From: an uncultured Prevotella sp.
GTDB lineage: Bacteria; Bacteroidota; Bacteroidia; Bacteroidales; Bacteroidaceae
Length of the DNA: 64,000 nucleotides
NCBI GenBank assembly: GCA_900322035.1
Contig: ONYL01000001.1
Coordinates: forward strand, 1-64,000
Reading direction: 5' to 3'
Positions 12,947 to 45,152 of the stretch are shown here, piece after piece. Within the stretch, counting starts at the first letter, position 1, and each line of letters begins with the position of its first letter. The position numbers and the translations under genes were made by a program. The notes below the pieces were generated by a model. It had not been told where the DNA came from and searched no databases. It saw only the letters and a program-made list of their open reading frames with translations.

Positions 12947-15586
12947 TTATTCGTTTTCACCGTCCGTGGACTGCTCATCACCCTGCGGCTCACCTTCGGG
13001 CGTCGCCTCACCATTAGGATCATAGGCTTCCGCCAGCGGTTCGGCAGTATTGTCGGCCTGGATCTCCTCATTCTGATGTGCCCACTGAGCACGGCTCTCT
13101 TCCTCTACCGCAGCCTCCAATTCGGAGCTCATCACCTTGCACACACTGGCAATGACATCATTCTTCTTGGTGAGGTTGATCAGCCTGACTCCTTGCGTAT
13201 TCCGACCCATAACGCGAACGTCAGATACAGCGAGTCGGATGACAATGCCACTCTTATTGATGATCATCAAGTCGTTCTGATTCGTTACGTTCTTGATGGC
13301 AACGAGCCCGCCGGTCTTGTCGGTGACATTGAGCGTACGCACACCTTTTCCACCTCTGAAGGTCTTGCGATAATCCTCTACCTCTGACCGTTTACCATAA
13401 CCTTCCTCACTGACAACCATTACAGTTTCGGTTTCTGGATCATTAACGACGATCATGCCTACGACTTCATCGTCCTTTCCATTGAGTGTCATTCCCTTCA
13501 CACCGGTTGCCATACGACCCATTGGACGAATATCAGACTCATTGAACCGGCAGGCACGACCATTGCGGTCGGCAAGGATTAGCTCGTTGTGTCCATTTGT
13601 TAGGCGAACGTCAACAACCTCATCGCCCTCATTAAGACTAATGGCTCTCACACCATTTGAGCGAGGACGGGAGAACTGTTCAAGTAGGGTTTTCTTCACA
13701 ATTCCATATTTAGTAGCAAACACTACATAGTGGCTATTGATGAAATCCTCATTGCCCAAACCACCGCCGCGGAGACGAAGCATGGCATTGACAGAGTCAT
13801 CGCTCTCGATATTGAGGAGGTTCTGTATGGCACGTCCCTTGGAATTTTTCTCTCCCTCCGGAATGTCGTAGCAATGCAGCCAATAAATGACGCCCTTCTT
13901 TGTGAAGAACAACATGGTCTGGTGCATTGTGGCCGGATAGATAAACTCCGTGAAATCCTTCTCACGCGTCTGAGCCCCCTTTGAGCCAACGCCACCACGA
14001 GCCTGCTCTCGGAATTCGCTCAGCGGAGTACGCTTGATATATCCCAAATGGCTCACCGTTATCACTACAGGGTCATTGGGATAGAAATCCTCGGCATTGA
14101 ACTCATGCTCGTCGGGGATAATCTGTGTACGACGCTCGTCATTGAATTGCTGCTTCACCGCCAAGAGTTCTTTTTTCATCACCTCCTTGCATTTTTCCGG
14201 ATCATCAAGAATAGACTGAAGTTCCTGGATATTTTTCATCAACTCGTCGTATTCTGCATGCAACTGCTCCAGACGCAAGCCGGTGAGCTGAGAAAGGCGC
14301 ATGTCTACGATGGCTTTACTCTGCAGGCTGTCAAGCTCAAACCGTTTCTCCAAGTTGGTCTGAGCCTCTGAGGGAGTTTTGCTTCCACGAATGATATGCA
14401 CCACTTCATCGATATTGTCACAAGCAATGATCAATCCCTCCAAAATGTGGGCACGCTCCTTGGCCTTGCGCAAATCATACTTCGTACGGCGGATCGTTAC
14501 ATCATGACGATGCTCTACAAAATATTTCACACAATCAGCGAGACTCAACAGACGTGGGCGACCCTTCACCAATGCGATGCAGTTCACAGAGAACGAACTC
14601 TGCAAAGCCGTCATTTTGAACAATTTGTTGAGAATAACGTTGGCATTGGCATCTTTCTTCACGTCAACCACGATGCGCATTCCTTGGCGACCGGTCTCAT
14701 CATTGACATTCGAAATGCCGTCGAGTTTACCCTCCTTGACCAAATCGGCAATATACTCGATCAGCATACGTTTGTTGACTCCATAAGGAATCTCCGTAAC
14801 AACGATCTTGTCGTGGCTCTCACCGGCCTCAATCTCCACCTTGGCACGCATGATGATACGGCCACGTCCGGTCTCGTAGGCTTCCTTAACACCCTTGAGT
14901 CCATAAATATAAGCCCCTGTAGGGAAATCAGGAGCAGGAATGTAACGCATCAGTTCACTGCTCGTGATCGAAGGATTGTCGATATAGGCGCAACAACCGT
15001 CGACGACCTCGCCCAAATTGTGCGTAGGAATATTGGTAGCCATACCCACGGCAATACCATTTCCGCCATTAACAAGAAGGTTGGGAATTTTCGTCGGCAT
15101 CACGGAAGGCTCTTGAAGGGTGTCATCGAAGTTGTTGACCATATCAACGGTCTCCTTCTCAAGATCGTCCATCGTACTCTCCCCAATCTTGGAGAGGCGG
15201 CATTCCGTATAACGCATAGCAGCGGGAGAATCGCCGTCGACAGAACCGAAGTTACCCTGGCCGTCAACAAGTTTGTAGCGCATGTTCCAATCCTGTCCCA
15301 TACGCACCAGCGCGCCGTAGACCGAGCTGTCGCCATGAGGGTGATACTTACCCAAGACCTCACCCACGACGCGGGCACATTTCTTATAAGGCTTGTCGCT
15401 GGTATTGCCGATACCCATCATACCATAGAGGATTCGACGATGAACCGGCTTGAATCCATCTCTGACATCGGGAAGGGCTCTTGCCACAATCACGGACATT
15501 GAATAATCTATGTAGGAAGATTTCATCTCTTCCTCAATGTTGATCTTCAAAATTCTGTCCTGATCAATTGTCTGATTATTATCCAT
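12947..15586 (-). CDS. gyrA: DNA gyrase subunit A
   Basis: Catalytic subunit of DNA gyrase, which introduces negative supercoils by double-strand passage. The active-site tyrosine is Tyr126 in AAMRYTE. The quinolone-resistance-determining region reads [18 protein letters not shown]: Ser87 corresponds to E. coli Ser83 (unchanged), while Gly91 stands where E. coli has Asp87. The C-terminal beta-pinwheel carries repeated blades (for example [16 protein letters not shown] and [20 protein letters not shown]), and a long acidic tail ends the protein (879 residues). The 5' gap holds a 22-bp repeat array; the TPR gene follows. Confidence 0.98.
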
Positions 15587-15867: not shown

Positions 15868-15999
15868 CCAGCTGCCAAAAGCTGGCCGGTCGGCTGGCAA
15901 ATGGTAGCCCAAGGGCTGGCAAATGGTAGCCCAAGGGCTGGCAAATGGAAACCCACGGGCTCTCAATTGAGAGCTGACGGGCTGGCTTATGTCTGCACG
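15868..15999. repeat. 22-bp tandem repeat array, locus 1 (six units)
   Basis: Six head-to-tail units of exactly 22 bases starting at 15868, 15890, 15912, 15934, 15956 and 15978. Units 2-4 are nearly identical (GGGCTGGCAAATGGTAGCCC and close variants); units 1, 5 and 6 are diverged. Many units are internally self-complementary: GGGCT pairs with AGCCC across a 10-base loop, and unit 5 has replaced the core by a perfect 16-base palindrome GCTCTCAATTGAGAGC. There are no spacers, so this is not a CRISPR. The same unit recurs at 30015-30168 and 44848-44935. Confidence 0.85.
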
Positions 16000-16242
16000 T
16001 GTCAACTCCCCAAAAAGAAATCACGACTAAACGTATCTCCCACCAATAAGCCACAGAAAACAGAAAAGAAAAGAACGATACGGAGTGCCGGTAAATTATT
16101 CCTCAAGCCATACGCTGACTGCTTACCAGCCATAAACATCCCCGAAGAGGTTTCTTGGAGAAAGAGAAGGCTTTTCAAAAGAATTTATATTAAGCCTATT
16201 ACAATCATTTGACTAAAAAAACCAAATATGGATTAAATTTGT

Positions 16243-16350: not shown

Positions 16351-17121
16351 ATGGGCAAAGGAAAATTGGCAAAATTCGCAGAAATGGAAACATTCCGAAA
16401 CGTGTTTCAATACCCATACTCCGTCGTGGACAATGTCCCTTTCAAAATGAAAGGACACTGGCGCGAGGAATATTTCCACAATGATCATCCTATCGTACTG
16501 GAATTAGGCTGTGGAAAAGGTGAGTACACAGTAGGATTGGGCAGCCGTTATCCTGAAAAAAACTTCATTGGAGTAGACATCAAAGGGGCGAGGATGTGGA
16601 CCGGGGCCAAACAAGCACTGGAAGAAGGATTGTCCAACGTGGCCTTCTTGCGCACAAGTATAGAGATCATCGATCGCTTTTTTGATGCCGATGAAGTACA
16701 GGAAATATGGCTGACTTTCTCTGATCCTCAGATGAAAAATCCACGCAAACGCCTCACTTCCACTTACTTCATGGAACGCTATCGCCACTTTCTCATAGAC
16801 CAGGGGATGATTCATCTGAAGACAGACTCCAACTTTCTCTTTACTTACACGTCGTATATGATAGACGTCAACCACCTCCCACTACTTTTCCGCACAACGG
16901 ACCTATACCACGAGAAAGGATTGGACAAGGAAACGCTGGATATTCTTTCGATCCACACTTATTACGAGCAAATGTGGATCGACCGGGGGCTGAACATCAA
17001 GTACCAAAAATTTCTTCTTCCCCACAAAGGCAAACTCACAGAACCCAACGTGGAGATACCTTTGGATGAATACCGCAGTTATCATCGTTCAAACAACAGC
17101 GGAGACGCGACAAGCAAATAG
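16351..17121 (+). CDS. trmB: tRNA (guanine-N7-)-methyltransferase
   Basis: SAM-dependent enzyme that makes m7G46 in the tRNA variable loop. The SAM-binding motif is [15 protein letters not shown] (about residues 50-64), followed by [12 protein letters not shown]; the family motif [13 protein letters not shown]-like [18 protein letters not shown] (about 127-145) follows, and [12 protein letters not shown] is near 158. The protein has 256 residues, slightly longer than E. coli TrmB with an extra C-terminal stretch. The gene stands alone, convergent with the DUF554 gene. Confidence 0.95.
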
Positions 17122-30014: not shown

Positions 30015-30168
30015 CAGGACAGCAAATGCAAACCCTCGGGCTGACAAATTTAAGCCAGCGGAATGGCAAATGCAAACCCACGGGCTGACAAATGCAAGCC
30101 AGCAGAATGGCAAATGCAAACCCACGGACTGACAAATACAAGCCAGCGGGTTGGCAAATGAGAGAGAC
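30015..30168. repeat. 22-bp tandem repeat array, locus 2 (seven units)
   Basis: Seven exact-period 22-base units starting at 30015, 30037, 30059, 30081, 30103, 30125 and 30147. They alternate between two types: one containing GGCTGACAAATGCAAGCCAG (units 2, 4 and 6) and one containing GAATGGCAAATGCAAACCCA (units 3 and 5, with 1 and 7 related), so the higher-order period is 44 bases. Type-one units can pair GGCT with AGCC. There are no spacers between units. Confidence 0.9.
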
Positions 30169-30217
30169 TGTATGAATCAATGATTAACAAAAGATGGTTG
30201 GCTCATCTCTGTCGGCT

Positions 30218-44847: not shown

Positions 44848-44935
44848 CAAGCTTGCAGAAGGGAGCCCGCGGGCTCTCTTCTGGCGGCCCATTGGCTTCC
44901 TTATGGAGTACGACCGGCCGACATATGGAGACCGG
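44848..44935. repeat. 22-bp tandem repeat array, locus 3 (four diverged units)
   Basis: Four in-phase 22-base units starting at 44848, 44870, 44892 and 44914. The second (CGGGCTCTCTTCTGGCGGCC, then CA) and fourth (CCGGCCGACATATGGAGACC, then GG) match the consensus best; the third matches at about 12 of 22 positions by my alignment. A possible extra unit with one missing base precedes them (GGGCACC...GGCCCA, from 44830). GC is locally high. Confidence 0.65.
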
Positions 44936-45152
44936 CATGAAGAAGCATTCTCCATCACATCTACTGCCCTTATACGGCGAAGTTGTAGCCCGGACAACAG
45001 CAGGTTGACCAAGCTGTCATGAGGTTGCACACGACTGTCATGCCCCAAAAAGCCAGTCCTTATGCTACTTTTTTCGTTTCAAATATTATGCTTTGCCTGA
45101 ACTATTCCACAATAAAGTTTCAAAAAAAGGAATAGGTATGGATTTTAATGAT

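Follow-up and report, generated by a model that had tools for sequence, protein, structure and literature searches.

Dispersed arrays of a 22-bp palindromic unit in a Prevotella genome and their pairing with HU-HIG genes across Bacteroidales

The gap between the divergent genes gyrA and trmB of an uncultured Prevotella sp. contains a tandem array of 22-bp units, and this locus raises the question of what such arrays are and which protein might recognize them. The window analyzed was a stretch of 64,000 bases (G000:C78:1-64000) from a 2.85-Mb draft genome that is 87% complete and is referred to as G000. The features of the window were as follows:

12947..15586, minus strand: gyrA (DNA gyrase subunit A), neighbor of array 1, outside the system
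15869..16000, no strand assigned: array 1, six 22-bp palindromic units between the divergent gyrA and trmB, scoring 15.6, 20.0, 20.6, 25.1, 15.7 and 13.2 bits
16001..16044, plus strand: right flank of array 1, first and second outward polar flank units (GTCAACTCCCC..., ACGACTAAACG...), weak
16351..17121, plus strand: trmB, neighbor of array 1, outside the system; anchor for the 80-species sample
30016..30169, no strand assigned: array 2, seven units, the last of them weak (2.8 bits), with a 44-bp super-period in addition
44849..44936, no strand assigned: array 3, four diverged units

The six-unit stretch reported in the initial annotation proved to be real, although its coordinates had been placed one base to the left of those given here. 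The identities of gyrA and trmB as its neighbors were confirmed, as was the count of 17 units (6 + 7 + 4) in the three arrays of the window. Autocorrelation at period 22 returned exactly arrays 1, 2 and 3, and at period 44 arrays 1 and 2, while periods of 20, 21 and 23 gave no match in the window; TRF detected arrays 1 and 2 and missed array 3. Scored with a position matrix whose training data came from other contigs, 13 of these 17 units exceeded 10 bits, and every other 22-mer of the window stayed at or below 9.1 bits. The short 13-base core GGGCTGGCAAATG of the initial annotation, with 3 mismatches allowed, was matched 27 times where 19.9 matches were expected, which alone is not above chance, so the significance rests on the periodic array. 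The window units were contiguous, without the unique spacers that split the repeats of a CRISPR. In array 2 (30022-30160) two unit variants alternated, which accounts for the 44-bp period (90% matches) and would fit a joint duplication of unit pairs.

The genome-wide search proposed in the initial annotation found copies far above chance. When G000 was searched with the palindrome GGGCTNNCATATGNNAGCCC at up to 3 mismatches, 119 sites were recovered compared to 6 for the reversed control; the same search in 59 other genomes gave 0-13 sites, close to their controls. A sequence-only model, R1, found at least about 69 distinct arrays in G000 with 150 of 585 candidates scored. For the full scan, 13 contigs (1,101,556 bases) were scored with a matrix trained on arrays outside C78, and arrays were accepted from 4 units and a summed score of 30 upwards. 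In these 1.10 Mb, 41 arrays with 197 units passed the cut-off, confirming a genomic repeat family with an exact 22-bp register. The modal length was exactly 4 units (28 arrays), and 2 arrays had 5 units, 4 had 6, 6 had 7 and 1 had 9. Not counted as arrays were four weak candidates, with 2, 2, 3 and 4 units and summed scores of 4-12, as well as 31 isolated 22-mers that exceeded 10 bits. Spacings of 19-21 and 23-25 bp gave negative 4-unit scores throughout contigs C78, C44 and C74.

Arrays of this geometry were also present in other species. Genus surveys of 398 genomes, own genome included, recorded them in at least 7 genomes with R1 and at least 22 with R2 (rows near E 0.01 counted as listed), both figures being lower bounds because 11 candidates were scored per genome. 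Genomes G235 and G332 had dispersed arrays of the TGGCTGACACGTGCCGACCAAT type, while G002, G197, G102 and G184 had dispersed arrays with other units. In Segatella copri iA622, the unit TGTTGTGCGCTTGCATATCAGC was matched 20 times at 13 loci, with 0 matches for the control. In an array-blind sample of 599 kb around trmB from 80 relatives, period 22 gave 10 matches at 44 of 66, and other periods from 13 to 35 gave 0-4 each; about half of the arrays found in this way were clear palindromes and the rest were not. The 22-bp geometry is common across the family, and the unit sequence is not. In the draft assemblies, many arrays lay no more than about 500 bp from the end of their contig (G235 C2:323, C3:386, C10:289, C18:158, C17:139 and C50:269; G000 C44:390, C77:271 and C49:156), as if the assemblies break beside arrays.

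The consensus of the 197 units was GG-N5-CANNTG-N5-CC plus a 2-bp spacer, a degenerate palindrome whose GG, CANNTG and CC columns were conserved at 88-96%, the two middle bases excepted. The fifth unit of array 1, GGGCTCTCAATTGAGAGC, had been thought to have swapped its core, which in fact agrees with this consensus. Mean identity between units was 60% inside 4-unit arrays, 72% inside longer arrays and 57% between arrays. The small difference between 60% and 57% indicates that the likeness comes from the shared motif and not from recent copying. Longer arrays look like secondary expansions, and their near-identical units (0.72) indicate that slippage does act on the arrays, as it would on a neutral minisatellite whose spacing and association with genes were incidental. 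However, the exact 22-bp register persists while the units diverge to 60% identity, the modal length is 4, and the CANNTG, GG and CC columns are kept at 88-96%. With the over-dispersion of the arrays and their association with HU-HIG genes (see below) added, a neutral minisatellite is highly improbable.

Since the consensus is palindromic and single units are self-complementary, the units had been read as hairpins in which dyad symmetry rather than sequence is kept. Such a hairpin or cruciform element (REP-like) would act in RNA or as extruded DNA. The variable arm positions of the 41 arrays were compared with an expectation from arms drawn from other arrays. Complementarity was at or below expectation on both axes (axis A, 0.54 versus 0.57 expected; axis B, 0.55 versus 0.60), no compensatory changes beyond expectation were found, and covariation was limited to the central bases, in G235 and G332. 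Hairpins are unlikely because the arms do not covary, which is as expected of half-sites read by a protein. The placement of arrays was also independent of transcription direction, and no Rfam family matched in the window. The covariation test, run on both axes in three genomes, leaves a hairpin or cruciform disfavored and with a very small probability.

According to a crude ORF caller, all 41 arrays were intergenic, whatever the orientation of the genes; many overlapped a short ORF (139 aa at most), and these ORFs were taken as spurious. Where both neighbors were available (39 arrays), 22 gene pairs were codirectional, 11 divergent and 6 convergent, not different from other long gaps (convergent p 0.53). 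The 28 within-contig gaps between arrays were 11.3 to 42.1 kb long, and 13 of them were 11.3-15.1 kb. In 20,000 draws from a uniform null, gaps below 11 kb averaged 11.8 and numbered at least 3 each time; an intergenic null (241 sites) averaged 11.5, again with at least 3 in every draw. The observed minimum gap of 11.3 kb was matched by 0 of 20,000 placements under either null. The effect was weaker in G235 (six contigs including C36, 12 gaps; contigs C10 and C18 left out; array positions among the matches listed), where the minimum gap had P 0.036 and at most one gap under 20 kb, compared to a mean of 5.2 expected, had P 0.003. In G332, two arrays were about 300-400 bp apart (L269:3898-4057 and L269:4360-4540). 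Because of the weaker effect in G235 and this close pair, the spacing rule is not general, and regular spacing is shown for G000 only. The second L269 array and the arrays in L270, L271 and L273 had the core CGTTCGACG instead of CACGTG, and possibly two unit types occur within the G332 genome.

The 82 outward flanks of the G000 arrays shared a polar motif in 22-bp register that faded over about three units, with mean information of 0.32, 0.14 and 0.06 bits in successive flank units; the motif was defined over all 82 flanks, and the single case right of array 1 is weak. The flanks of S. copri were stronger (0.47, 0.47 and 0.26; 22 flanks, two of the 13 loci left out), and in G235 the flank motif was weak. 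Beyond this fading phased motif, no common leader or tail was found in the 82 flanks, and BLAST detected similarity in only a handful of flank pairs. These observations bear on a MITE-type mobile element with an internal minisatellite, for which the spacing would reflect insertion immunity. The arrays are dispersed, intergenic, tandem and without spacers, as such an element would be, and few array positions appear common to G000 and G235. A precedent is BrickBuilt of Porphyromonas gingivalis, a Bacteroidales element with 23-nt repeats according to the available part of its description (PMC4596501). However, the lack of a shared leader or tail argues against such an element, as do units of 4-unit arrays that are barely more alike (0.60) than units of different arrays (0.57), so not recent copies, and an array that travels with HU-HIG genes across Bacteroidales. 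We consider a BrickBuilt-like MITE very unlikely.

To find genes associated with the arrays, up to two genes on each side of 41 G000, 20 G235, 10 G332 and 13 S. copri arrays were compared. The sole neighbor family with a member in all four species was HU-HIG (PF18291), a protein of about 200 aa, while other families recurred in two or three species. In all four, the HU-HIG gene was always the first beside the array, and the array was 5' of the gene. The only such gene of G000 at E <= 1e-8 lay beyond the window, elsewhere on its contig:

C78:114344-114946: HU-HIG gene encoding 200 aa; a 4-unit array belonging to the G000 family lies 82 bp upstream

PF18291 consists of an HU/IHF-like domain and a C-terminal, putatively winged-helix-like part; the family was reportedly described by Burroughs and colleagues in 2017. 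In the open-licence papers searched, no DNA target of HU-HIG proteins, no description of 22-bp arrays and no matching named repeat were found. With no Rfam match in the window and copies in abundance, the two outcomes that the initial annotation had named as refuting it did not occur. A Bacteroides vulgatus HU-HIG protein is listed in a table in the available part of one paper (PMC11035120). Three proteins matched HU-HIG in Pfam at E 2.7e-19 to 2.9e-27 or better, and scores against the HU-HIG profile were 69.9, 100.7 and 95.6 bits, above the curated cut-off of 26.2 bits; all 16 aligned members matched the profile (E <= 0.01). Against NCBIfam TIGR01201 HU_rel, the candidates stayed under the cut-off. 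Among solved structures, a profile search matched HU and IHF between residues 30 and 120 (IHF beta E 2e-6), and the C-terminal part gave weak winged-helix matches only (FeoC, MarR, SelB-wing and S25). The top row of the structure search, a WD-40 protein over 30 residues, was rejected as an artefact with no significant stretch.

The pairing of HU-HIG genes with arrays extended across Bacteroidales. We collected 46 HU-HIG loci (E < 1e-15) from 24 genomes and from 393 Bacteroidales genomes, the latter set with loci for 30 of 48 listed matches. A period-22 array (at least 40 of 66) was present within 600 bp upstream at 26 of the 46 loci (27 at 36 or more), and 6 other loci had one downstream (at least 36). 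Any of 12 other periods was found at 2 of 46 loci at 40 or more and at 5 at 36 or more, some of them 21 bp. Only 9 of 356 control genes had an upstream array (Fisher p 4e-21 versus 26 of 46). A strict count gave 21 of 42 loci (p 1e-16) after removal of the four loci that had led to the family, namely three of the 26 and the G000 gene, itself below threshold at 34, and with two mis-scored loci counted as misses. Loci L305 and L318 had been scored on an adjoining non-palindromic repeat, next to which the palindromic 4-unit array lies, and the upstream match at L349 is AT-rich and may be spurious. The repeat in question, CAAGGAAGCAATTATGACGATG, is a near-perfect 22-bp repeat located just before the palindromic array at L305:1184-1271 and L318:1244-1287 (G069, S. 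copri).

At 13 of the 46 loci no period-22 array was detected on either side at 36 of 66, and three of these had a 21-bp signal. Arrays of 21 bp at HU-HIG loci L363, L356, L345 and L348 hint at a variant geometry. No HU-HIG homolog was detected at E <= 1e-8 in 7 of 24 array-bearing or candidate genomes, and the HU-HIG locus of G016 had no array. In G069, arrays of the TTGCTGGCA type were orphans with no matching gene detected, and in G423 the dispersed unit (L165) differed from the unit at the HU-HIG gene. None of 50,697 phage records matched the G000 HU-HIG protein, which rules against a phage origin of the protein. The G235 protein had distant matches in 11 plasmid records (Bacteroides, Phocaeicola, Parabacteroides and Prevotella). 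Four of the 11 plasmid loci were read: L361 had an upstream 4x22 array, the 22-bp array of L364 was weaker (38 of 66), L363 had a 4x21 array, and L362 was below threshold (35 of 66). L361 and L364 are from the Bacteroides finegoldii plasmids NZ_OY725904.1 and NZ_OY725917.1, whose HU-HIG genes have upstream arrays of their own. Annotated plasmid genes of B. finegoldii and Phocaeicola massiliensis share the gene-array layout, once with 21 bp.

The units are lineage-specific, and paralogues within one genome carry different units, S. copri having four; the TGTTGTGC array adjoins the S. copri HU-HIG gene L304. Over 33 loci, similarity between proteins correlated with similarity between their units (Mantel r 0.35, p 2e-4), and leaving out pairs above 60% identity gave r 0.155 (p 0.013); we regard this as suggestive support for a protein-unit match. 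Two matches were independent: the dispersed unit of G002, found with R1, was the same as the unit at the G002 HU-HIG gene, and the L187 unit from the array-blind scan resembled the array beside an HU-HIG gene of that genome, where it is downstream. The positions of changes were compared in nine pairs above 60% identity. Between G332 C16 and G235 C36, which share a unit, the HU part had 10 changes and the C-terminal part none in 75 positions; between G422 C57 and G069, which also share a unit, 6 of 73 C-terminal positions had changed, versus 6 of 125. Pairs with unlike units, namely the G436 paralogues (86% identical) and the G543/G058 pair, had a 3-fold excess of C-terminal changes, and the G422 C57/C24 pair, also with unlike units, an excess of only 1.2-fold. 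Given this mixed picture, it is suggested at most that the putative winged-helix part may read the unit. The unit of the S. copri C24 paralogue occurred in its own array and at one lone site in S. copri, and in two clusters plus lone sites in G069, so not every unit is dispersed.

Arrays 5' of the HU-HIG gene, and units of some paralogues found at one or two places only, could mean that the arrays are operators of an ordinary regulon and that HU-HIG is a transcription regulator of adjoining genes with no architectural role. However, the 39 dispersed arrays with both neighbors were distributed over gene-pair orientations like other long gaps, and they are over-dispersed on the chromosome, as operators need not be. 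We consider an ordinary regulon unlikely.

The initial annotation suggested that a protein binds cooperatively along the array. As far as sequence can tell this is plausible, and HU-HIG is a candidate for the protein; the 4x22 geometry also prompted the idea of an Lrp/AsnC octamer as binder. In our judgment the arrays are probably cooperative docking sites for dimers of HU-HIG, which would be an autoregulated, sequence-specific HU-like nucleoid protein, and also chromosome anchors. The putative C-terminal winged helices of a homodimer would read both half-sites of one 22-bp palindrome, and four or more dimers would line up next to one another at intervals of about two helical turns. Bending or wrapping of the DNA would fall to the HU-like domains, and the weaker phased flank units would lengthen the complex to some 200 bp. 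Via the array in its promoter region the protein would control its own gene, while further arrays of this type, multiplied and never less than 11 kb from each other, would form regularly spaced nucleoprotein anchors along the chromosome. This chromosome-organizing role is one that we infer from array spacing and context.

A wider reading is put forward more tentatively. HU-HIG proteins and 4x22-bp arrays across Bacteroidales may be self-recoding pairs that change together between lineages and between paralogues, with the geometry of 22 bp and at least four units fixed. In some lineages (G000, G235/G332, Segatella copri and G002) one array type would have been multiplied over the chromosome, in G000 at regular distances, as sequence-coded anchors, which would be a bacterial counterpart of insulator or loop-anchor elements. 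Docking sites for a histone-like protein that seems to evolve fast would, if the docking reading is true, be a new way for bacteria to organize a chromosome. Were the dispersed arrays anchors, some Bacteroidales, including a Segatella copri strain, would own a sequence-coded chromosome-organizing system whose code is rewritten between species with its geometry kept, making coevolution of nucleoid protein and site directly testable. One binding assay would suffice to test the predicted pairing of one gene with one array.

Among described elements, the BrickBuilt MITE of P. gingivalis comes closest in form; it also consists of intergenic tandem repeats of about 22-23 nt without spacers in a Bacteroidales genome. 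In the available part of its description (PMC4596501), BrickBuilt has a 23-nt unit, a leader, a tail, terminal inverted repeats and 1 to 22.8 repeats. In contrast, the arrays described here have a 22-bp dyad unit, a modal length of 4, no shared leader or tail and a sequence that varies between species; the 23-nt unit and the conserved leader, tail and terminal inverted repeats of BrickBuilt were not found in them. Comparable to the proposed binder is BldC of Streptomyces, a winged-helix protein that binds repeated sites cooperatively and distorts the DNA, but according to the part of its description available (PMC5859096) it is MerR-like, binds short direct repeats head to tail and has no HU domain. 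The stem-loop kept by compensatory changes that marks a REP or hairpin element was not observed in the arrays. IHF with the REP/BIME-type elements of enterobacteria provides a case of dispersed intergenic repeats bound by a protein of the HU/IHF family, to which the predicted binder here also belongs, although that system has neither tandem 22-bp palindromes nor a winged-helix part. In the MatP/matS, Noc and SlmA systems, a dedicated DNA-binding protein organizes or marks the chromosome through many dispersed sites, which is how the proposed system would work. Their sites are single and the binder is not HU-like, whereas the arrays here are tandem with at least four units and the unit differs between species. 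As with MatP/matS, many dispersed, non-randomly spaced sites were found in G000 and, with a weaker effect, in G235.
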